Assembly: GCA_016190405.1 (NCBI GenBank)
Contig: JACPQO010000030.1
Location: 1-16,747, forward strand
From: Chloroflexota bacterium
GTDB taxonomy: Bacteria > Chloroflexota > Dehalococcoidia > SM23-28-2 > RBG-16-64-32
DNA: 16,747 nucleotides
Direction of reading: 5' to 3'
Shown here: positions 6,048 through 13,485 of the stretch, in pieces
Numbering within the stretch: position 1 is the stretch's first letter
Layout: each line of letters opens with the position of its first letter
Program-made: the position numbers and the translations under genes
Notes under the pieces: generated by a model
What the model was told of the DNA's origin: nothing
Seen by the model: only the letters and a program-made list of their open reading frames with translations
Database searches by the model: none

Positions 6048-6944
6048 TCAGGCGCCGACGGCGGGGTGGACCAGAACGACCGGCGCCAGGCCTTCGATAA
6101 CCTCGTCGGCGACGCTGCCCAGAGCCCAGTGACCGCCGGCGAACCGGCTGCGGGAGGCCATCACCACCAAGTCGGGCTGCAACTGCTCGACGGTCTGCAC
6201 CAGAACCTGAGCAGGAAAGCCGCGCTCCACCACGGCGGCCTCCACCACGTCCGGGTGGCGGTTCTTCACGCGATTGAGGTAGGACTTGGCGCGCTTCGCG
6301 AGCTGCCTGTCAACATCCGGGGGGTACGTCTCCGGCAGGCCGAGCTCGAACGGGGGCAGGACCGGCGGCACTACGCGCACGAGAGTGATGCGGGAGCCGG
6401 CGGCGCGGGCGATCTGGCTGGCCACCGGCATGGCGGCCTCGGATTCACTGCTACCGTCCAAGGGCACCAGGATGGAGCGCAGGCTGACCTCTTGGGGAGG
6501 CCAGCGTTCCGGGCCGCGGGGGCCGACGATGAGGACAGGTACCGTGGAGCCCCGCAGAACCTTATCGGCGACACTGCCGCGTCGCCGCTGGGTCACACCG
6601 CGGCGGCCGTGGCTGGCCATCGCCAGCAGATCGGCGTCCATCTCGCTCACCGCCAGCATGATCTCGTAGGCCGGGTGTCCGGCCCGCACCTCGGTGGACA
6701 CCAGCAGCCCCTGGCGTTGCAGGGCCTGGGCGATGTTGTGCAGATAGGCGCGGAAGTAGCGGACGCCGTGGTCACGGAGGACCCTGGCGTGGACGGGGCC
6801 GACGGTCTCCACCTCCTCCGGGAGCGTCTCCCATACCGAAAACAGGATCAGCTCGCAGCGGGCGGCTTCAGCCAGAGAGCGAGCCAGGGGGAGCGCGGTC
6901 TCGGAAAGAGGGGACCCGTCCAGAGCGACCAGTATCCGTCGCAT
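6048..6944 (-). CDS. Universal stress protein, two tandem UspA domains
   Basis: A 298-residue protein made of two UspA domains (about 1-145 and 155-298). Each begins with the beta-strand/nucleotide motif ILVALDGS or ILVPLDGS. The first domain keeps the ATP-binding signature SHG-x9-GS (SHGRRGVTQRRRGSVADKV). The second has the degenerate SRSRFAGGHWALGS, where His-Gly is replaced by Arg-Ser, so its nucleotide binding may be altered. USPs are cytoplasmic, often ATP-binding proteins of stasis and low-oxygen survival; molecular function varies. The start is supported by GGGAGG 8 nt upstream. Only 13 bp separate it from the preceding USP gene on the same strand, so the two form an operon. Confidence 0.92.
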   Translation of the reverse strand: MRRILVALDGSPLSETALPLARSLAEAARCELILFSVWETLPEEVETVGPVHARVLRDHGVRYFRAYLHNIAQALQRQGLLVSTEVRAGHPAYEIMLAVSEMDADLLAMASHGRRGVTQRRRGSVADKVLRGSTVPVLIVGPRGPERWPPQEVSLRSILVPLDGSSESEAAMPVASQIARAAGSRITLVRVVPPVLPPFELGLPETYPPDVDRQLAKRAKSYLNRVKNRHPDVVEAAVVERGFPAQVLVQTVEQLQPDLVVMASRSRFAGGHWALGSVADEVIEGLAPVVLVHPAVGA

Positions 6945-6957
6945 TTCATCCGCCTCC

Positions 6958-7488
6958 CTAAGCGGCGTGTTGGCCCAGGTCCTGCGGCCGCACCAGCAGC
7001 AGTGGCCGCACGCCGTCGGCCAGCACCTTGCCGGTCACGCTGCCGAAGATAAGGGTACGAAGGCCGGTATGCCCGTGCGTGGCCATAGCGATGAGGTCGA
7101 CGGGGTGGCTGCGGGCGTATTCGATGATCCTGTCGCCGGCGCCGTCGCCAACGTCAACCGCTACTTGCACCTGGATGCCGCGCTCGCGGAGGGGCTGCGC
7201 TTTCTCCTCCAGGTACTCCGTCATCTCGCGCTCGCGCCGTTCGATGGCCTGGGCCTTGGTCTCAACGTAGCGGGGCGCGGTGATTACGGGGGTGTAGAGC
7301 GCGCCCACCCCCCTGGACACGACGGGTGGCTGCACCTCCAGCGGAGCCTCGGGCGTGGCGGCAGGGAGCTCGCCGGCCATGAACAGAGTCACGCTGGCGC
7401 CGCTGCCGGCGGCCAGCTCCGTCACCGCGGGAAGGATAACCTCCGAATACTGAGAGCCGTCCAGGGTAACCAGGATGTTCCGAAACAT
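6958..7488 (-). CDS. Universal stress protein, single UspA domain
   Basis: A 176-residue single-domain USP: MFRNILVTLDGSQYSEVILP at the start and ATHGHTGLRTLIFGSVTGKV near the C-terminus, the THG-x9-GS ATP-binding signature. Between them is an inserted Pro-rich and then highly charged stretch (about residues 45-100, including EAPLEVQPPVVS and ERREREMTEYLEEKAQ), longer than in minimal UspA. The frame is open to 7983, but ATG at 7488 is chosen because GGAGGG lies 8 nt upstream and the domain begins there. It is the first gene of a two-gene USP operon, divergent from another USP gene across a shared control region with two dyad sites. Confidence 0.92.
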   Translation of the reverse strand: MFRNILVTLDGSQYSEVILPAVTELAAGSGASVTLFMAGELPAATPEAPLEVQPPVVSRGVGALYTPVITAPRYVETKAQAIERREREMTEYLEEKAQPLRERGIQVQVAVDVGDGAGDRIIEYARSHPVDLIAMATHGHTGLRTLIFGSVTGKVLADGVRPLLLVRPQDLGQHAA

Positions 7489-7512: not shown

Positions 7513-7518
7513 AGTGTA
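7513..7518 (-). promoter_or_regulatory. Candidate -10 box for the minus-strand USP operon
   Basis: TACACT on the minus strand (4 of 6 consensus) lies 25 bp upstream of the ATG at 7488, with no recognisable -35. A start near 7506 would place the dyad at 7543-7556 at about -43.5, suiting an activator-dependent promoter. Confidence 0.4.
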
Positions 7519-7542: not shown

Positions 7543-7556
7543 GGTACGTCCGTCCC
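7543..7556. promoter_or_regulatory. DosR-box-like dyad (site A2)
   Basis: GGTAC-GTCC-GTCCC differs at one half-site base from GGGAC-N4-GTCCC, the core of the mycobacterial DosR box. It is centred about 43.5 bp upstream of the inferred USP start on the minus strand and 23 bp from site A1. Confidence 0.45.
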
Positions 7557-7565
7557 CAGGCAGAA

Positions 7566-7579
7566 GGGCCATTCGGCAC
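7566..7579. promoter_or_regulatory. DosR-box-like dyad (site A1)
   Basis: GGGCC-ATTC-GGCAC differs at one half-site base from GGGCC-N4-GGCCC. It is centred about 41.5 bp upstream of the start inferred from the -10 box at 7602-7607, the classical position for an activator next to RNA polymerase. Confidence 0.45.
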
Positions 7580-7598
7580 GTTGGGGCGAGATGACCTA

Positions 7599-7607
7599 TG
7601 CTATAAT
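7599..7607 (+). promoter_or_regulatory. Extended -10 promoter of the USP-protease operon
   Basis: TGC-TATAAT (7599-7607) is a perfect extended -10 element. The only -35-like sequence is TTGGGG at 7581-7586 with a short 15-nt spacer, so activator help is likely. Transcription would begin near 7614, leaving a leader of about 190 nt before the ATG at 7801. Confidence 0.65.
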
Positions 7608-7632
7608 CAAATCGGGAGAGAACGGGAAAACA

Positions 7633-7783
7633 CGCCGGCGCCCGCAGATGGTGCAGGCCTCGATGACCTCTGTAAAAGGAGGCGGGCAGCCCCAAGCAGC
7701 GGTGGTTACTGTTGAGCGGGCGCCGGCGCGTTATGTGGGATGGCGCGGGCAAGGTGCTGAAGCCGCGCTTTTTTGTTGCCCGC
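7633..7783 (+). promoter_or_regulatory. Candidate attenuator leader with mutually exclusive stems
   Basis: Three features are read directly. First, CGCCGGCGCCCGC (7633-7645) and GCGGGCGCCGGCG (7716-7728) are perfect 13-bp inverted arms 70 nt apart. Second, GCGCGG (7743-7748) pairs with CCGCGC (7763-7768), directly followed by six Ts (7769-7774), like an intrinsic terminator. Third, GCGGGCAA (7745-7752) pairs perfectly with TTGCCCGC (7776-7783); this overlaps the terminator's 5' arm, so the two cannot form together. GCGGGC occurs three times (7682, 7716, 7745) and GCCCGC twice (7640, 7778), allowing partner switching. The element ends 6 nt before the AAGGAGG ribosome site. It matches no riboswitch class I can recognise. 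Confidence 0.5.
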
Positions 7784-7804
7784 AGGCGTAAGGAGGCTCC
7801 ATGA
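7733..7804 (+). CDS. Possible 23-residue leader peptide overlapping the USP start
   Basis: ATG at 7733 opens a 23-codon frame ending in TGA at 7802-7804, which overlaps the USP start codon as ATGA. The peptide begins MWDGAGKVLKPRFF and is basic (ARRRKEAP at the end). The frame spans the terminator/antiterminator arms, so ribosome movement could influence folding. No ribosome-binding site is visible upstream of the ATG, and a chance frame in GC-rich DNA is equally possible. Confidence 0.2.
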   Translation: MWDGAGKVLKPRFFVARRRKEAP

Positions 7805-8664
7805 TCGAACGGATCCTGGCTCCGCTGGACGGCTCCGAACTGGCCGAGACCGTACTCCCGTACGTCGAACACCTGGCGGTGCGGACCGGCGCCGATGTGC
7901 GGCTGCTGAGGGTGGCCCGCACGGAGGCCGAGAGGGCGGCAGCGAACGCCTATCTTCAGGCCAAGCGCCAGGAGCTCCGGCAACGGGCCGTGGAGGCTTC
8001 TGTGGCGGTGGCGCCGGACGGGGAGGCGGAGACGATCCTGGCCGAGGCGGACAACTGGGACGTGAGCCTAATCGCCATGAGCACCCACGGCCAGTCCGGG
8101 GTGTTACGCTGGGTGTTCGGCAGCGTGGCCGACAAGGTTCTGCACGGGAGCTCGCGCCCGCTGTTGGTGGTGCGCTCGCGCCCGGCCAGAGAGCGGCCGG
8201 CGGAGGTGAAGATCGAGCGCATCCTGGTGCCCCTGGACGGCTCGGAACTGTCGCTGACCGTGCTGCCCTACGTGGAAGACATAGCCAAAGCATTGGGGGC
8301 CAGCCTGGTGCTGTTCAACGCCGTGATCCCGCTGGACATCTATCCGGGCGCGGAGGTAGCGCCGACGCGCGTAGGAAGCCTCATCGACGACCTGCTGGCC
8401 CAGGCGCAATCGTTCCTGACGGCGGTCGAGAAGGAGTGCGCCGGACGGGGGGTCAAGGCGCGCAGCGTCGCCACCATCGGCTTCCCGGTCGATGAGACGG
8501 TGCGGGTGGCGACGGAGGTGGGGGCCGGGCTCATCGCCCTGGCCACCCACGGGCGCTCAGGGGTGAACCGCTGGATAATGGGCAGCGTGGCGGACGGGGT
8601 GGTACGCCGGAGCGCGCTGCCCTGCCTGCTGCTGCGACCGGAGGGGCTGGCGGCAGAGGAGTGA
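7801..8664 (+). CDS. Universal stress protein, two tandem UspA domains
   Basis: A 287-residue tandem USP. Domain 1 (about 1-130) begins MIERILAPLDGSELAETVLPYVE and carries STHGQSGVLRWVFGSVADKV. Domain 2 (about 138-285) begins IERILVPLDGSELSLTVLPYVE and carries ATHGRSGVNRWIMGSVADGV. Both keep the THG-x9-GS nucleotide-binding signature, unlike the minus-strand tandem USP. The two domains are clearly alike, suggesting an internal duplication. AAGGAGG at 7790-7796 sets the ATG. The stop codon lies 2 nt before the ATG of the M50 protease gene, so the two are co-translated. In mycobacteria a tandem USP (Rv2623) sits near a CBS-bearing M50 protease (Rv2625c) in the DosR regulon; the arrangement here is similar. 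Expression is probably governed by the promoter, dyads and leader just upstream. Confidence 0.93.
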   Translation: MIERILAPLDGSELAETVLPYVEHLAVRTGADVRLLRVARTEAERAAANAYLQAKRQELRQRAVEASVAVAPDGEAETILAEADNWDVSLIAMSTHGQSGVLRWVFGSVADKVLHGSSRPLLVVRSRPARERPAEVKIERILVPLDGSELSLTVLPYVEDIAKALGASLVLFNAVIPLDIYPGAEVAPTRVGSLIDDLLAQAQSFLTAVEKECAGRGVKARSVATIGFPVDETVRVATEVGAGLIALATHGRSGVNRWIMGSVADGVVRRSALPCLLLRPEGLAAEE

Positions 8665-8666
8665 CG

Positions 8667-9815
8667 ATGGGCTCCTTCCGGCTGGGACGCATCGCCGGGA
8701 TCGACATCCTGGTCCACTGGAGCTGGTTCGCCATCTTCTTCCTGCTCACCTGGTGGCTGGCGGCGGGCTTCTTCGCCGACGTGTACGAGGACTGGAGCGC
8801 CAGCGAGCGCTGGGGCTCGGCGGTAGTGGCAGCCCTCCTGTTCTTCGGCTCGGTGCTCCTGCACGAGCTTTCGCACTCGCTGGTAGCCAAACGGCTGGGG
8901 CTGCCGGTAAAGAGCATCACGCTGTTCATATTCGGCGGGGTGTCGGCCCTGGGGGCAGAGCCGAGCAACGCCAGGCAGGAGTTCCGGGTAGCCATCGTTG
9001 GCCCCCTGACGAGCTTCCTGCTGGCAGGGGTCTTCGGCGCTCTTCTGGTCGTGGCCTGGGCCGCCGACAGGCTGGATTCCCCGCCGGGGGCCATCGCGGA
9101 GTACCTGGCGTTCATCAACCTGGCCGTGGGCGTATTCAACATGCTGCCGGGCTACCCCCTGGACGGCGGGCGGGTGCTGCGGGCCAGCCTATGGGCCCGT
9201 AGCGGCAACCTGCTGTCGGCGACGAAGATAGCCGCCGGCGCCGGCACGTTCATCGCCTTCGGGCTGATCGCAGCGGGGGTGCTTTCCATCCTGGCCGGCT
9301 CCTTCATCGGCGGCGCCTGGTTCATCGTCATCGGCTGGTTCCTGCGCAACGTATCGGAGGCGTCGTACCAGCAGCTGCTGTTCCGCAGCTCGCTGGAAGG
9401 GACCAGAGTGAGCGAGGTCATCAACCGCAGCTTCCACGCGGCGCCGCCGGACATCTCGCTGAGCCAGCTGGTCAACGAATACATGCTGGCCTGGAGCCAG
9501 CGCTGCGTCCCCATCGTGGCCGGCGAAGAGCTGCTGGGGCTGGTGACGATGGGCGATCTGAAGCGGGTGGCTCAAGAGGAGTGGGCGACGACCAGCACGT
9601 TCCGGGCCATGACACCCCTGGAGAAGCTCCACGTAGCCAGGCCGCAGGACGACCTGACCCAGGCGCTGGACGCCATGGCGTCCCACGACGTGCACCAGCT
9701 GCCGGTGCTGGAAGGGCGCCTGTTCCTGGGCTTCGTGACCCGCGCCGATGTTCTGAAGCTGATCCAGATCCGCAGCGAGCTAGGCGGCAAGCCCAGCAGC
9801 GTCCAGGGGTCCTGA
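8667..9815 (+). CDS. M50 site-2-type membrane metalloprotease with CBS pair
   Basis: A 382-residue intramembrane zinc protease. The zinc motif HELSH (His66, Glu67, His70) is inside a membrane helix, and the third ligand Asp166 lies in NMLPGYPLDGGRVLR. Several further hydrophobic helices (about residues 15-35, 52-70, 108-130, 145-165, 190-225) match the family. The C-terminal part (about 240-375) is a CBS pair: CVPIVAGEELLGLVTMGDLK and HQLPVLEGRLFLGFVTRADVLK, which usually senses adenine nucleotides. This architecture matches the mycobacterial Rip3 (Rv2625c) type. Substrates are unknown; anti-sigma factors or regulators are typical of the fold. ATG at 8667 is preferred over GTG at 8661 because AGAGGAG ends 5 nt upstream of it. 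The gene ends 9 bp from a convergent receiver gene. Confidence 0.93.
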   Translation: MGSFRLGRIAGIDILVHWSWFAIFFLLTWWLAAGFFADVYEDWSASERWGSAVVAALLFFGSVLLHELSHSLVAKRLGLPVKSITLFIFGGVSALGAEPSNARQEFRVAIVGPLTSFLLAGVFGALLVVAWAADRLDSPPGAIAEYLAFINLAVGVFNMLPGYPLDGGRVLRASLWARSGNLLSATKIAAGAGTFIAFGLIAAGVLSILAGSFIGGAWFIVIGWFLRNVSEASYQQLLFRSSLEGTRVSEVINRSFHAAPPDISLSQLVNEYMLAWSQRCVPIVAGEELLGLVTMGDLKRVAQEEWATTSTFRAMTPLEKLHVARPQDDLTQALDAMASHDVHQLPVLEGRLFLGFVTRADVLKLIQIRSELGGKPSSVQGS

Positions 9816-9819
9816 GCCA

Positions 9820-9835
9820 CCGCCCTAGCAGGCGG
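9820..9835. terminator. Short hairpin between convergent genes
   Basis: CCGCC (9820-9824) pairs with GGCGG (9831-9835) across a 6-nt loop between the protease and receiver stop codons. It has no T-run and could be chance in GC-rich sequence. Confidence 0.25.
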
Positions 9836-10208
9836 CAACGGGCTGCAACAGACCGCGGAGCTCCTCGGTCAGGGCCTTCAGGCTAATGCCCTTCAAGAGG
9901 CACCTATCGACGCCGGCCTGGAGGTAGTCGCGCTCCTCCCCGGCCAGCAGGTACGAGGTGAAGACGACGAGGCGCGAGCCCGGGCTGGCGCGGGCGATGC
10001 GCCGGTACATAGGGGCGCTGTGAGCACCCATCCCCTTGAGGTCGACGAGGATGATGTCCGGTTCCCAGAACCAGGCCAGCTCCGTGCCCAACAGCGCGTC
10101 GCCGGTGTGCGCCACGACGCGGAACGGCGGGTAGGAGTTCAGCCGTCGGGCCAGCAGGCCCCGGACTCCGCTGTGTTCATCGATTATGAGGATAGTGATT
10201 TCCGGCAT
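9825..10208 (-). CDS. Orphan single-domain response regulator (receiver protein)
   Basis: A 127-residue stand-alone receiver domain: ITILIIDEHSGVRGLLARRL at the start, phosphoacceptor Asp56 in DIILVDLKG, Thr84 in LVVFTSY and Lys106 in CLLKG. The acidic pair is Asp10-Glu11 instead of Asp-Asp, still compatible with Mg2+ binding. No output domain follows. Such proteins act by protein contacts, as phosphate sinks or by competing for a kinase. It is divergent from the histidine kinase gene across 129 bp holding two dyad sites, so regulation with the kinase is likely. The frame is open further upstream, but the domain and GAGGGG 5 nt before the ATG at 10208 fix the start. Which kinase phosphorylates it is unknown; the adjacent one is the obvious candidate. 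Confidence 0.88.
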   Translation of the reverse strand: MPEITILIIDEHSGVRGLLARRLNSYPPFRVVAHTGDALLGTELAWFWEPDIILVDLKGMGAHSAPMYRRIARASPGSRLVVFTSYLLAGEERDYLQAGVDRCLLKGISLKALTEELRGLLQPVAAC

Positions 10209-10258
10209 GCCGCCCCTCTTCATCATCAAACGTAGCGCCCTCAAGAATGGATCGGACA

Positions 10259-10272
10259 GGGCATAGCGGCCC
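10259..10272. promoter_or_regulatory. DosR-box-like dyad (site D2)
   Basis: GGGCA-TAGC-GGCCC differs at one base from GGGCC-N4-GGCCC. It is centred exactly 23 bp from site D1 in the kinase/receiver intergenic region. It would fit an activator site for the minus-strand receiver gene, whose -10 is not clear (TACGTT near 10229-10234 is weak). Confidence 0.4.
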
Positions 10273-10287
10273 CTACAGAAGGGGCCG
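10267..10287. repeat. Perfect 8-bp inverted repeat between divergent genes
   Basis: CGGCCCCT (10267-10274) and AGGGGCCG (10280-10287) are exact inverted arms around ACAGA. It links the two dyads D2 and D1 and might partly arise from their similarity. Confidence 0.5.
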
Positions 10288-10295
10288 AGTGTCCC
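10282..10295. promoter_or_regulatory. DosR-box-like dyad (site D1)
   Basis: GGGCC-GAGT-GTCCC matches GGG(A/C)C-N4-GTCCC at all half-site positions. It is centred about 46.5 bp upstream of the inferred kinase transcription start and 23 bp from D2. Confidence 0.5.
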
Positions 10296-10322
10296 GTCAG
10301 GAGAGGGCCAGGCCGGGTGGGT

Positions 10323-10328
10323 TATAAT
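10323..10328 (+). promoter_or_regulatory. -10 box giving a leaderless kinase mRNA
   Basis: A perfect TATAAT ends 9 nt before the ATG at 10338. Usual -10 to start spacing puts the first transcribed base at about 10335-10338, so the mRNA has essentially no leader. There is no ribosome site and no -35 (GGAGAG at the expected place), so an activator at D1 may be needed. Confidence 0.62.
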
Positions 10329-10337
10329 CTCCCTAGA

Positions 10338-11786
10338 ATGACACGAAAAGTGCGGCCCTTGGGGAGCTTTTCCCTGAGCCTGAACACTCTGCGCTGGATC
10401 GCCATCATCGTTCCCGTGACGTTCGGGGTCGGCATCGGGGTGTTCGAGGACCAGGTGCTGGAACCGATGATGGCGGAGCACTGGGCGCACATCCTGGTAA
10501 CCGCCGTCATCGGGCTGGCTGCCCTGGCATTTTCCACGTTCATCTTCACCTTGCTGGGCCGGACGTACCGGCAGTTGAAGGAGCACGAGAAGCAACTGGA
10601 GCGCCAGGCCGTAGAGCTACAGTCGGCCACGCAAGCCACCCAGAAGCGAGCCGAGGAATGGAAGTCGCTGTTCGAGCTGGGGCGGGAGGTGACCGCCTCG
10701 CCGGACCTGGAGGCGCTGCTCCACTCCATCGTGTCCAGGGCCAAGAGCCTGCTGAACACGGACATCGCGGCCCTCATGCTGCTCACGCCGGACGGGGAGC
10801 ACGCCAACATGGCGGCCCAGGCGGGGCTCCGTACGCCGGCCATGCAGCAACTGCGGCTGCCGGCGGCGCACGGGATACAAGGGCTGGTGCTGGAGACCGG
10901 GGGACCGGTCATCGTGGAGGACTACCAGAGTGACGACAGGCTGCGCAGCCGGCCGGCTCGCTTGGTAGCGGCAGAGGGGTTGGTTTCGCTGGTTTCGGTG
11001 CCCTTCTCCGGGAAGGGCAGGCCGCTGGGTACGCTGACGGTGGGCAACCGCCAGCCCACGCGGTTCGACCAGCGACACGCCGAGCTGCTGGAGGCCTTCG
11101 CTAGCTGGGCCGCGGTGGCCGCCGAGACCAGCCACTTGTACGAGAAGGTGGAGAGCCTGGCCCGCCTGGAGGAACGCGAGCGCATCGGCATGGACCTGCA
11201 CGACGGCGTGATCCAGTCGATCTACGCGGTGGGGCTGAACCTGGAGGACTGCGCCGAGAGGGTCGAGCAAGCGCCGGAGGACGTACGCAAGGGACTGGAG
11301 AGGGCGATAGACGACCTGAGCCGGGTGATCAAGGACATCCGCAGCTACATTTTCGACCTGCGGCCGCAGGTGTCACAGGTGACCGACCTGCCGCAGGCGG
11401 TCAGCGAGCTGGTGCGGGATGTCCGCGTCAACACGCTGATGGATGTCGAACTTGCCATTGAGGGGAAACTGGATGGGCTGCTGGACCAGGACCAGGCGCT
11501 GGCCCTGTTCCACATCGCACAGGAGGCGCTGAACAACGTCAGCCGGCACTCCCAGGCCTCGTCCGTGCGGGTGCGGCTGGCAGCGGACGAGGACCGGGTC
11601 GTCCTGGAGGTGCAGGACAACGGCGTGGGCTTCGACGTGAAGGAGAGCGCCGGCACCGGCAAGCAGGGGATGCGCAACATCAATGACCGGGCCCGCAGCC
11701 TGGGGGCGGCCCTGACGGTTGCCAGCCAGCGCGGGCTCGGCACGCGAGTGGCGGTGGAACTGCCGATGGCCAGGGTGAAAGGCTAG
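10338..11786 (+). CDS. Membrane GAF histidine kinase, NarL/DosS type (HisKA_3)
   Basis: A 482-residue sensor kinase. Two membrane helices (about 18-35 and 51-74) are separated by a very short outside loop, so the signal is probably sensed in the cytoplasm or membrane. A coiled-coil (about 75-108) leads to a GAF domain (about 115-265). The HisKA_3 segment ERERIGMDLHDGVIQSIYAV has phosphorylated His288. The HATPase part shows the N-box FHIAQEALNN (391-400), G1 DNGVGFD (427-433) and G2 GKQGMRNIND. This is the architecture of NarL-family partners such as DosS and DesK-like kinases; the GAF ligand (heme, nucleotide or other) cannot be told. ATG at 10338 is chosen because an upstream GTG at 10317 would lie before the -10 box. 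The regulator gene starts 4 bp after its stop. Confidence 0.92.
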   Translation: MTRKVRPLGSFSLSLNTLRWIAIIVPVTFGVGIGVFEDQVLEPMMAEHWAHILVTAVIGLAALAFSTFIFTLLGRTYRQLKEHEKQLERQAVELQSATQATQKRAEEWKSLFELGREVTASPDLEALLHSIVSRAKSLLNTDIAALMLLTPDGEHANMAAQAGLRTPAMQQLRLPAAHGIQGLVLETGGPVIVEDYQSDDRLRSRPARLVAAEGLVSLVSVPFSGKGRPLGTLTVGNRQPTRFDQRHAELLEAFASWAAVAAETSHLYEKVESLARLEERERIGMDLHDGVIQSIYAVGLNLEDCAERVEQAPEDVRKGLERAIDDLSRVIKDIRSYIFDLRPQVSQVTDLPQAVSELVRDVRVNTLMDVELAIEGKLDGLLDQDQALALFHIAQEALNNVSRHSQASSVRVRLAADEDRVVLEVQDNGVGFDVKESAGTGKQGMRNINDRARSLGAALTVASQRGLGTRVAVELPMARVKG

Positions 11787-11790
11787 GGAT

Positions 11791-12453
11791 ATGCCCGAAG
11801 ATAAGATCACGATACTGATCGTGGACGACCATGAGGTGGTGCGGATGGGGCTGCGCACGCTGCTGGAGCGGCGGCCCGGCTTCCTGGTCGTGGGCGAAGC
11901 GGGAACGGTAGCGGAATCGATAGCGTCCGCCCGTCAATCGCAGCCCGACGTGGTGGTGATGGACATCCGGCTGCCGGACGGCAGCGGGGTGGAGGCCTGC
12001 CGCGAGATCCGGGACGAGCGGCCGCAGACGAAGGTGATCATGCTGACCTCCTACGCCGACGAAGAGGCGCTGTACGGCTCCATCATGGCCGGGGCTTCGG
12101 GGTACCTGCTGAAGCAGACGCGGGGACAGTCGCTGGCGGAGGCGATCGACCGCGTGGCGCGGGGCGAATCGCTGCTGGACCCGGCCGTGACCGATAAGGT
12201 GCTGGAGCGGATGCGTCAGCTGGCGCGGGGGGAGTCGGACGAGCTGGCGGCGCTATCGCCGCAGGAGCGCAAGATCCTGGCGCTGATAGCGGAAGGGAAG
12301 ACCAACAAGGAGATCGCGCAAGCGGTGTTTCTGAGCGATAAGACGGTGAAGAACTACGTCTCCAGCATCCTGAGCAAGCTGAACTTGAGGCGCCGTGCCG
12401 AGGCGGCGGCCTTCATCGCCGAGCGGCGGGGCAGGCAGCTCCGCCAGGACTGA
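11791..12453 (+). CDS. NarL/DosR-type response regulator
   Basis: A 220-residue two-domain regulator. The receiver domain (about 5-122) has Asp12-Asp13, phosphoacceptor Asp58 in VVVMDIRLPDG, Thr86 in IMLTSY and Lys108 in GYLLKQT. The LuxR-type HTH (about 155-208) reads LSPQERKILALIAEGKTNKE and then LSDKTVKNYVSSILSKLNLR. In Mycobacterium DosR, Lys179, Lys182 and Asn183 contact DNA; the same KTVKN pattern gives Lys184, Lys187 and Asn188 here. I infer a DosR-like regulator that may bind the GGGCC-N4-GGCCC dyads around it. It is coupled to the kinase gene 4 bp upstream, its likely partner. NarL-family proteins are numerous, so DosR orthology needs a tree. Confidence 0.93.
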   Translation: MPEDKITILIVDDHEVVRMGLRTLLERRPGFLVVGEAGTVAESIASARQSQPDVVVMDIRLPDGSGVEACREIRDERPQTKVIMLTSYADEEALYGSIMAGASGYLLKQTRGQSLAEAIDRVARGESLLDPAVTDKVLERMRQLARGESDELAALSPQERKILALIAEGKTNKEIAQAVFLSDKTVKNYVSSILSKLNLRRRAEAAAFIAERRGRQLRQD

Positions 12454-12459
12454 TCGTCC

Positions 12460-12476
12460 CCGGGTCGGAAGCCCGG
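12460..12476 (+). terminator. Weak hairpin after the response regulator
   Basis: CCGGG (12460-12464) pairs with CCCGG (12472-12476) across a 7-nt loop, 7 nt after the regulator's stop codon. No T-run is present. Confidence 0.3.
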
Positions 12477-12567
12477 AAGGGCAGCCTCCAGACACCCGCT
12501 AAGCCATCCGCCAGCCCATGCCCTTCGCGGGCTCCCTACGTGACCGCTTTCGTGTCAGGCCAGGCGC

Positions 12568-12747
12568 TCAGGCAGCCTTGACGACCGAGAACGGCTCGCC
12601 CAGGATGCCGGCCGTTAAGACACGAGCCTCTTCCGCCTGGTTGAGGATATAGCCGCACTGGACGCAGGAGATGTAGTAGCCGTAGATGTCGGACTCCTGG
12701 CGGAGATCGCCCCGGCAGCGCGGGCACTGCTTGAGCCAGTAACGCAC
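12568..12747 (-). CDS. 59-residue zinc-ribbon protein
   Basis: A short gene easily missed by length filters. GTG at 12747 starts MRYWLKQCPRCRGDL, followed by DIYGYYISCVQCGYIL, and the frame ends with EPFSVVKAA and TGA at 12568. The two pairs CPRC (8-11) and CVQC (28-31) form a four-cysteine zinc ribbon. Function is unknown; proteins of this kind may bind nucleic acid or a partner protein. I recall similar MRYWLK-CPRC-GDL proteins in Chloroflexota, but could not search. GGAGAGG lies about 4 nt upstream of the GTG, supporting the start. It has its own promoter with a palindrome overlapping the -10 and converges with the response regulator gene, 114 bp away. Confidence 0.82.
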   Translation of the reverse strand: MRYWLKQCPRCRGDLRQESDIYGYYISCVQCGYILNQAEEARVLTAGILGEPFSVVKAA

Positions 12748-12767
12748 GGTCCTCTCCGTTCCAGCCT

Positions 12768-12796
12768 TTTAGACGTCTAAGCCCGCCACCTCTCAA
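12768..12796 (-). promoter_or_regulatory. Promoter of the zinc-ribbon gene
   Basis: On the minus strand TTGAGA (plus 12791-12796; 5 of 6 consensus) is followed by a 17-nt spacer and TCTAAA (12768-12773; 4 of 6). Transcription would start near 12761, about 14 bases before the GTG at 12747. Confidence 0.55.
12769..12780. promoter_or_regulatory. Perfect 12-bp palindrome over the -10 (operator candidate)
   Basis: TTAGACGTCTAA reads the same on both strands and overlaps the -10 box of the zinc-ribbon promoter, the typical place for a repressor operator. It is AT-richer than its surroundings and unlike the GGGCC dyads, suggesting a different regulator. Confidence 0.5.
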
Positions 12797-12861
12797 CCTT
12801 CCAGGGCAAGGGTAATGGCATAGCCAGGCCGGGATGAGAAGGCGTTCGGCACTAGGTGCGG

Positions 12862-12875
12862 GGGCCTTTCGGCCC
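12862..12875. promoter_or_regulatory. DosR-box-like dyad (site B1)
   Basis: GGGCC-TTTC-GGCCC is a perfect dyad, flanked by G and A exactly as at site C1. Partial copies lie 23 bp on each side: AAGGC-GTTC-GGCAC at 12839-12852 and GGGCC-GAGA-GGGCT at 12885-12898. It is about 107 bp upstream of the zinc-ribbon start site, so its target promoter is unclear. Confidence 0.45.
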
Positions 12876-12896
12876 ATTGTGAGGGGGCCGAGAGGG

Positions 12897-13007
12897 CTAG
12901 CTGAAGGTGAGAAACTTGGGCTCGATGAAGGCCCTCAGGATATCTGGCCGCGAGATGACGCCCACCAGCCGCCCGTTCTCGGTCACAGGAACGCGGAGAG
13001 GCGCCGC
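12897..13007 (-). pseudogene. Remnant of a CBS-domain protein (C-terminal fragment)
   Basis: Reading the minus strand, the frame gives RVPVTENGRLVGVISRPDI, then LRAFIEPKFLTFS and a stop (plus 12897-12899). This is the characteristic last third of a CBS domain (hydrophobic-P-V-x-x-x-G-x-L-x-G-(V/I)-(I/V)-S-x-x-D-(I/L)-(L/V)). Everything before it is missing: an in-frame stop lies at 13008-13010, and the intact DUF302 gene ends at 13020. There is no start codon or ribosome site. I infer a deletion that joined the tail of a CBS protein to the 3' side of the DUF302 gene, with the junction near 12995-13010. Two-CBS proteins such as Hrp1 belong to the DosR regulon in mycobacteria, so the lost gene fits the neighbourhood. 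Confidence 0.72.
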
Positions 13008-13019
13008 CTATCCTATTTG

Positions 13020-13418
13020 TTAGCCGCTCAGCCGGTCAATGACGCGTTCCAGCTTCTCGCGGGCGATCCGGGAGACCTCGTCCAGGCCCGAGGCGCCGGA
13101 GAGCCGGGCCATCACCAGCGGGTCCAGGATCGACACGACGGAGCCGCCGTCCTCCTGTCGCACGGTGACGTTGCAGGGCAGCAGCAGCCCGGCCTCGATA
13201 TCGTCCTGGAGGGCGGCGAAGGCCAGCGGGGGGTTACAGGCGCCCAGGATGACGTAGGGCTGAAAGTCGGCGCCGATCTTCTCCCGCAACGTCTGGCGGA
13301 CATCGATCTCCGTGAGGATACCGAAGCCCTCTTCCTTGAGGGCGCCTCTTACGGCCGCGATAGCCGGCTCCAGGGGCAGGTCAAGGGCGATGGACAGGCC
13401 GTAGGGCAACTCTTTCAT
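13020..13418 (-). CDS. DUF302 protein
   Basis: A 132-residue single-domain protein. Its core, ALKEEGFGILTEIDVRQTLR, then FQPYVILGACNPPLAFAALQ and GLLLPCNVTVRQ, is the pattern of the DUF302 family: a 'GFG+L+EIDV' motif, a 'LGACNP' cysteine motif and a 'LLPCN' motif. The two Cys residues (in GACNPP and LPCNV) are conserved in the family and could bind a ligand or metal; the function is not established. ATG at 13418 is supported by GGAGG 8 nt upstream, and upstream in-frame sequence is not domain-like. A -10 like TACCAT (plus 13442-13447) lies about 43 bp from dyad C1, suggesting the same control as the USP genes. It is divergent from the SDR gene, 158 bp away. Confidence 0.87.
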   Translation of the reverse strand: MKELPYGLSIALDLPLEPAIAAVRGALKEEGFGILTEIDVRQTLREKIGADFQPYVILGACNPPLAFAALQDDIEAGLLLPCNVTVRQEDGGSVVSILDPLVMARLSGASGLDEVSRIAREKLERVIDRLSG

Positions 13419-13441
13419 CGTGACCACCTCCAACCAAGGAG

Positions 13442-13447
13442 ATGGTA
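13442..13447 (-). promoter_or_regulatory. Candidate -10 box of the DUF302 gene
   Basis: TACCAT on the minus strand (4 of 6 consensus) gives a start near 13435, so dyad C1 would be centred at about -43.5, as at the minus-strand USP promoter. No -35 is evident. Confidence 0.38.
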
Positions 13448-13471
13448 AGGCCAGAGAAGCGGCCAGGCTAG

Positions 13472-13485
13472 GGGCCGAACGGCCC
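13472..13485. promoter_or_regulatory. DosR-box-like dyad (site C1)
   Basis: GGGCC-GAAC-GGCCC is a perfect dyad with the same flanks as B1 (G before, A after). A lone GGGCC half-site follows at 13494-13498, 22 bp on. It lies in the DUF302/SDR intergenic region and is best placed for the DUF302 promoter. Confidence 0.48.

Follow-up and report, generated by a model that had tools for sequence, protein, structure and literature searches.

The 16,747-nt stretch of DNA analysed here (the window; contig JACPQO010000030.1) is from Chloroflexota and encodes a sensor kinase and a NarL-family response regulator (11791–12453), surrounded by genes for Usp proteins, a stand-alone receiver domain, a zinc-ribbon-like protein and a DUF302 protein (Table 1). 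Among the regulator homologues that carry an organism name in the source, the closest are from Dehalococcoidia bacteria (83–88% identity), and the nearest locus in a named genome is that of Chloroflexi bacterium RBG_16_64_32 (82%). The control regions of these genes contain a GC-rich dyad repeated at a spacing of 23 bp. These dyads are very probably operators of the DosR/OsdR-type regulator encoded at 11791–12453 and are read here as a Dehalococcoidia regulon.

Arrangement of the boxes within the locus

Six sites of the form GGGMC-N4-GKCCC with no more than one mismatch each were described in the initial annotation (7543, 7566, 10259, 10282, 12862 and 13472), and all were recovered in a pattern scan. 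The exact 23-bp separation of 7543 from 7566 and of 10259 from 10282 was likewise present, as were weak copies flanking 12862 at the same distance on both sides (12839 and 12885). The 14-mer at 12862 also occurs in a related locus (L098, position 11855).

The number of single sites at this tolerance is not remarkable: the window holds 14 where 9.5 would be expected, and as high a count was reached in 21 of 200 shuffled sequences. Exact matches to GGGCC-N4-GGCCC are rarer, three being present against 0.21 expected, and none of the 200 shuffles reached three. The initial annotation had counted two exact matches, both between genes; these exist, but the count was incomplete because a third, at 10148–10161, lies within the receiver gene. 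When pairs of sites were scored (summed mismatches of two or fewer), three were found at a spacing of 23 bp and none at any other spacing between 14 and 80 bp. Simulation of 400 windows under a second-order Markov model gave a mean of 0.0125 pairs at 23 bp, and no simulated window held three pairs at any spacing. It is the spacing of pairs, not the number of single sites, that exceeds chance.

Table 1. Genes, boxes and predicted promoter elements of the locus, in window coordinates. The gene starts at 10338, 7488, 12747 and 13418 are our reading of the sequence.
Feature	Position	Strand	Basis
Double Usp protein	6048–6944	-	Domain assignment
Usp protein, predicted target	6958–7488	-	Domain and promoter phase
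Predicted -10 TACACT of Usp gene 6958–7488	7513–7518	-	31.5 bp from centre of box 7543
DosR/OsdR-type box proximal to Usp gene 6958–7488	7543–7556		Matrix score >11; 23 bp from 7566
DosR/OsdR-type box, partner of 7543 at +23	7566–7579		Pattern and matrix score >11
TATAAT of USP2b	7602–7607	+	29.5 bp from centre of box 7566
USP2b, double Usp protein	7801–8664	+	Domain assignment
M50 peptidase with CBS domains	8661–9815	+	Domain assignment
Stand-alone receiver domain protein, predicted target	9825–10208	-	Domain and conserved promoter
Predicted -10 TACGTT of receiver gene	10229–10234	-	31.5 bp from centre of box 10259
Box proximal to receiver gene 9825–10208	10259–10272		Pattern and conserved receiver promoter
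Strong box, partner of 10259 at +23	10282–10295		Pattern and matrix score >11
TATAAT of kinase gene	10323–10328	+	34.5 bp from box centre
Sensor kinase: hydrophobic N-terminus, GAF, HisKA_3, HATPase	10338–11786	+	ATG at 10338; open reading frame from 10317
NarL-family response regulator, DosR/OsdR-type, presumed binder	11791–12453	+	Sequence comparison
Zinc-ribbon-like protein, 59 aa, predicted target	12568–12747	-	Sequence and box array
Predicted -10 TACCCT of zinc-ribbon gene	12809–12814	-	31.5 bp from centre of box 12839
Weak box proximal to zinc-ribbon gene	12839–12852		Matrix and promoter phase
Strong box, centre of triple array	12862–12875		Pattern and matrix score >11
Weak third box of triple array, +23 from 12862	12885–12898		Pair scan
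DUF302 protein, predicted target	13020–13418	-	Domain and promoter phase
Predicted -10 TACCAT of DUF302 gene	13442–13447	-	31.5 bp from centre of box 13472
Strong box upstream of DUF302 gene, without good partner	13472–13485		Pattern and matrix score >11

Box spacing in related genomes

Relatives of the regulator were found at 591 confirmed loci, of which the best 80 from named genomes (L001–L080) were combined with the window to give 81 records. Across these records, pairs of boxes peaked at spacings of 22 bp (15 pairs) and 23 bp (11 pairs), whereas spacings of 30–80 bp averaged 1.43 pairs and never exceeded five. Three of the 11 pairs at 23 bp are the window's own, and L033, L034 and L036, which account for three of the 15 at 22 bp, share the same boxes. 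Forty-two sites from the 22–23-bp pairs of L001–L080 then served to train a scoring matrix, which was applied to sequences outside the training set; L100 and L001 are one contig, and no training pair came from L001.

Within the window, the matrix returned four pairs at 23 bp and five sites with a score above 11. All five are intergenic, in a sequence where intergenic DNA accounts for 2096 of 16747 bases, so that the strong sites are not as frequent inside genes as in promoters. Lower cut-offs admitted weaker sites that were mostly coding, with five of seven sites intergenic above a score of 10 and five of 13 above a score of 8 (the remaining eight coding). In ten orthologous regulator neighbourhoods (180 kb), 13 pairs at 23 bp and four at 22 bp were present over a background of 0.49 per spacing. 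At the main matrix cut-off, no pair at 23 bp was found in 160 kb from two genomes lacking the regulator (G026 and G027), and one was found in 200 kb of four regulator-positive genomes, taken at a distance from the regulator. The 23-bp spacing, whose absence elsewhere would have spoken against the initial annotation, therefore recurs both in the 81 records, as a peak at 22–23 bp, and in the orthologous neighbourhoods. A further genome, G258 (L186), contains two 22-bp pairs and two 23-bp pairs, of which one falls within a called gene, and the two loci fetched for their nosZ genes (L187 and L188) hold one 23-bp pair apiece.

Promoter geometry and conserved predicted targets

Several sites had initially been placed with their centres 41–47 bp upstream of inferred starts. 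This fits USP2b and the kinase gene, but it is the opposite strand that shows the exact and conserved geometry. The minus-strand genes for the 6958–7488 Usp protein, the receiver, the zinc-ribbon protein and the DUF302 protein, and not the plus-strand genes, each have a TAnnnT hexamer that starts 31.5 bp from the centre of the proximal box. If the hexamer starts at -12, the proximal box would be centred at approximately -43.5, at the position of a -35 element.

The 31.5-bp offset was first noticed on boxed promoters listed by hand, many of which are shared with the set subsequently recounted. The recount was performed without a gene model on 28 automatically called pairs, read outward on both sides, from the window, the ten neighbourhoods and loci L180, L181, L183 and L184. 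TAnnnT started 31.5 bp from the centre of a box in ten cases, the mean per offset being 0.79; L180 and L181, which were fetched because the plain pattern showed pairs there, contribute none of the ten. In the independent loci L002–L080, 66 distinct pairs gave five occurrences at 30.5 bp and seven at 31.5 bp; elsewhere the mean was 0.52 and the highest count three. These twelve phased cases are from Chloroflexota (L008, L012, L015, L019, L023 and twice L061), Actinomycetota (L053, twice L056, and L062) and one other phylum (L076).

The initial annotation had also made its reading depend on conservation in orthologous promoters, and boxes are indeed kept upstream of the receiver, zinc-ribbon, DUF302 and kinase genes. 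The receiver promoter has a phased -10 behind its box at nine of nine loci, the offset being 31.5 bp in the window, L098, L101, L103, L186 and L017, 30.5 bp in L099 and L019, and 31.5 bp by reading in L193, where the contig ends at the box. The proximal receiver box is weak in L017, L019 and L103 (scores of 2.8, 3.6 and 3.7). Among 25 genomes of the order, ten with the regulator and 15 without, the receiver gene (E 1e-12 or better) is present in five of the ten and in none of the 15, and the Asp and Lys of the receiver do not vary in eight sequences. The zinc-ribbon gene adjoining the regulator is preceded by pairs or triples at 22–23 bp in the window and in all five relatives, at a summed score above 12, which is less strict than the main cut-off of the neighbourhood scan. 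A pair was found at one (G010) of 25 other zinc-ribbon-like loci, mostly remote look-alikes, and none accompanies the closest zinc-ribbon homologues in regulator-lacking genomes (G017, 59%; G018, 60%). An orthologue of the DUF302 gene (E 1e-8 or better) exists in only one of the 25 genomes (L102), where it has a 22-bp pair and a phased TAGACT; with this single orthologue there is no conservation contrast for DUF302.

Genes beyond the window also carry the array. A 23-bp pair lies upstream of nosZ, of the TIGR04246 type, in all three genomes of the order that have this gene (G008, G013 and G022), with scores of 25.9, 21.1 and 14.7; only two of these cases are independent, since the first was found through the motif. 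The pair in G022 is inside a called upstream Rrf2-like frame. Pairs also precede molybdopterin oxidoreductase genes (L104 and L105), cupredoxin genes (L103), a DoxX-like gene whose match is just under the Pfam cut-off (L104), and a multicopper oxidase gene and a dimethyl sulphoxide (DMSO)-reductase-like gene (L181). The distribution of nosZ itself is confined to regulator-positive genomes (3/10 versus 0/15), in small numbers and draft genomes.

A different dyad resembling CRP/FNR sites, TGTKA-N6-TMACR, is situated 25 bp after the proximal box and before each of two cupredoxin genes (L103, 11346 and 18992), and next to the array that precedes nosZ in G013 (L188, 9580). Five such dyads occur in 297 kb, against one in 360 kb of control sequence, and they possibly mark a second regulator.

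The kinase promoter follows no fixed phase. Its TATAAT is 34.5 bp from the box in the window, 37.5 bp in L098, 36.5 bp in L101 and 43.5 bp in L099, and in G013 and G012 (L102 and L103) it comes to within 17.5 and 18.5 bp of the box centre, where a bound protein could block polymerase. The regulator might thus bind its boxes but repress some targets, with the kinase–regulator operon autorepressed and only the other strand activated. This would be compatible with the boxes being operators of the adjacent regulator, the two not excluding one another, but two points weigh against it: the TATCAT of the kinase gene in L106, which at 32.5 bp is close to the fixed phase, and the M. tuberculosis regulator, which activates its own operon. 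Repression of this kind is unlikely, although it deserves serious consideration. The kinase ATG at 10338 is ten bases past the end of a perfect TATAAT, and its mRNA may therefore be nearly leaderless; by eye, the layout seems similar in L101, L102 and L103.

The regulator, its sensor and the reading of the boxes

The regulator consists of a NarL-type receiver and a GerE helix-turn-helix domain and is closest to DevR. Its best match among solved structures is M. tuberculosis DevR/DosR (198.5 bits), ahead of VraR (155) and NarL (124), and the stretch KTVKNYVS is identical to that of DevR/DosR. Residues D58, T86 and K187 show no variation in an alignment of 30 homologues. They correspond to D54, T82 and K182 of the M. 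tuberculosis protein, which are given as the phosphoacceptor (PMC3029386), the cooperativity residue (PMC4973870) and a DNA-contact residue (PMC5999986). A tree of 95 rows, without DevR, placed the regulator with Chloroflexota rows and apart from most Actinomycetota members, with moderate support for the deep forks; the tree family that contains it also includes Actinomycetota members. By sequence, the regulator is a member of the DosR/OsdR family. Close orthologues (E 1e-95 or better) are present in nine of 393 genomes drawn from the class, eight of them in one order.

The resemblance extends to the boxes. Tandem GGG[A/C]C-N4-G[G/T]CCC boxes lie upstream of the predicted targets, the proximal box overlaps the -35 position, though not at every boxed promoter, and Usp genes belong to the predicted regulon, with boxes between 6958–7488 and 7801–8664. 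In the M. tuberculosis DosR/DevR system with DosS/DosT, PMC3029386 describes one, two or more close-packed boxes, bound cooperatively, with the proximal box over the -35, and PMC4973870 describes cooperative binding to tandem sites. The window shares with this system the close-packed boxes, the placement of the proximal box and the Usp targets, but its box core is more commonly GGGCC than GGGAC. The likeness to the DosR box drawn in the initial annotation holds, and OsdR of Streptomyces coelicolor offers an equally close parallel. The 16-base OsdR consensus, AGGGCCGATCGGCCCT, which was tested by gel shift, nearly equals the motif of the window; Usp genes lie near that regulator and in its regulon, and M. 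tuberculosis DevR targets are read as well (PMC5069765). Both systems pair Usp genes with a NarL-family regulator. The OsdR/OsdK system differs in its phylum and its set of targets, and the window has a conserved receiver-only target and a kinase without the DevS-type histidine.

In DosS, H149 is the haem ligand. The GAF domain of the window kinase has Leu in place of the histidine of the PPYHPPM motif of DosS, and haem-based sensing of oxygen by this kinase, having been considered, is not supported, as the aligned histidine is absent. Four related genomes have kinases with a DosS-type histidine, identified by alignment in one case and by eye in three. The kinase in the same position in G022 has an extra GAF domain with the histidine, for which the haem GAF kinases DosT and DevS are the best solved matches, and those of G012, G013 and G015 have an FPPxHPxM stretch. 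The kinases of the window, G001 and G005–G009 contain another GAF, by eye located after hydrophobic segments except in G001, whose kinase ends with the contig. The sensor therefore differs among close relatives while the boxes and the regulator stay.

These observations support a shared set of DosR-like operators, as the initial annotation had proposed, for which the regulator at 11791–12453 would be the binding protein. Two or three boxes 23 bp apart would allow neighbouring regulator dimers to touch, because 23 bp slightly exceeds two helical turns. The phosphorylated regulator would then bind cooperatively, a strong box aiding a weak one, and the gene-proximal box would replace the missing -35 and recruit RNA polymerase to a weak TAnnnT -10. 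The direct targets in the window would be the Usp pair, the stand-alone receiver, the zinc-ribbon protein and the DUF302 protein. Effects on USP2b and the kinase–regulator operon are less certain because their TATAAT is off the fixed phase.

Several results weigh against this reading. At a lower matrix cut-off of 12, pairs at 23 bp numbered 18 in the orthologous neighbourhoods, one in the regulator-lacking set and two in the set far from the regulator. The G+C content of the regulator-lacking set is lower (63.1 versus 65.8%), and genomes scored as lacking the regulator may be incomplete. One genome without a close regulator orthologue, G010 (L155), has a 22-bp pair (1351/1373) near its zinc-ribbon look-alike, and a pair in the window at 8661 (score 14.0) is within coding sequence. 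By a crude gene caller, the 17 pairs of the relatives at 22–23 bp are divided into nine outside genes, four at edges and four inside (L098 11855, L101 18632, L103 8687 and L106 2510). In our judgement, two of these last calls (L101 18632 and L106 2510) reflect receiver and kinase genes whose starts were apparently extended too far, and the one around L098 11855 is a short frame. TAnnnT at 30.5–31.5 bp is absent at the kinase genes, a short-chain dehydrogenase/reductase (SDR) gene, both cupredoxin genes, the three nosZ genes and both tested pairs of L181. Finally, the plain pair pattern with three mismatches did not discriminate: the ten regulator-positive genomes gave 133 matches at 23 bp, 121 at 28 bp and 105 for the backwards control of the 23-bp pattern, and the 15 other genomes gave 71 at 23 bp and 67 for the backwards control. 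Because this IUPAC pattern was undiscriminating over the 25 genomes, the matrix and held-out neighbourhoods were used.

The boxes could instead be read by another LuxR/NarL-type regulator, a paralogue encoded elsewhere, with the adjacent regulator serving other targets. Paralogues of 38–51% identity are present in two related genomes, and sites of the NarL family are often short dyads. Against this stand the recognition helix of the adjacent regulator, which matches that of DosR, the recurrence of the boxes next to its relatives in other phyla, and the concentration of arrays near the regulator at the main cut-off, and a different reader is accordingly thought improbable. That the dyads are RNA or DNA structural elements, such as terminators or repetitive extragenic palindrome (REP)-like repeats, is suggested by the hairpins that their five-base GC stems and four-base loop could form. 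This was rejected, as terminator-like calls are absent at every box, three of the four box regions are between divergent genes, and a terminator has no use for a 23-bp array or a fixed distance to the -10; a structural role is highly improbable. Chance occurrence in a sequence of 66% GC, to which the near-expected counts of single sites at one mismatch would point, is contradicted by the pair spacing, the out-of-sample conservation and the -10 phase and is given virtually no weight.

If the boxes are operators of the DosR/OsdR-type regulator, the promoter grammar (boxes every 22–23 bp, the proximal one near -43.5) may have persisted in both Chloroflexota and Actinomycetota while close relatives exchanged the sensor between haem-type and membrane-linked GAF. 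The most constant target in Dehalococcoidia, a lone phosphorylatable receiver, might drain phosphate from the kinase and so exert built-in negative feedback on a regulon for stress and anaerobic respiration to which nosZ belongs. We advance this combined proposal tentatively, with slightly less than even confidence. Because the receiver-only target is conserved, such feedback is open to direct assay in vitro.

Both the operator and the way it is used were already known; the present analysis contributes the taxon, the exact phase, the exchange of sensors and the receiver target. Among the matches listed, no paper on a DosR/OsdR-type system in Chloroflexota was found in the open-licence literature, and none there treats DosR together with Dehalococcoidia; one listed paper, on the Rhodococcus equi genome (PMC2947987), contains DosR and names Chloroflexi once. 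The reading would extend an actinobacterial control system for dormancy and low oxygen, together with the code of its operators and a promoter rule exact to the base, to an uncultured Chloroflexota lineage, in which it predicts that nitrous oxide reductase, molybdopterin oxidoreductases and stress proteins are regulated. The combination of box and TAnnnT could be used for finding DosR-type regulons in unannotated genomes.

Among the remaining genes of the window, the double Usp gene at 6048–6944 is, from its closeness, probably co-transcribed with the Usp gene at 6958–7488. The window also encodes an M50 peptidase with CBS domains, and an M50/CBS protein, Rv2625c, is in the M. tuberculosis DosR regulon. 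On the minus strand at 12908–13000, between the zinc-ribbon array and the DUF302 gene, a fragment resembling the end of a CBS domain (GRLVGVISRPDILRAF) was noticed by eye, and from its sequence looks like a gene remnant.

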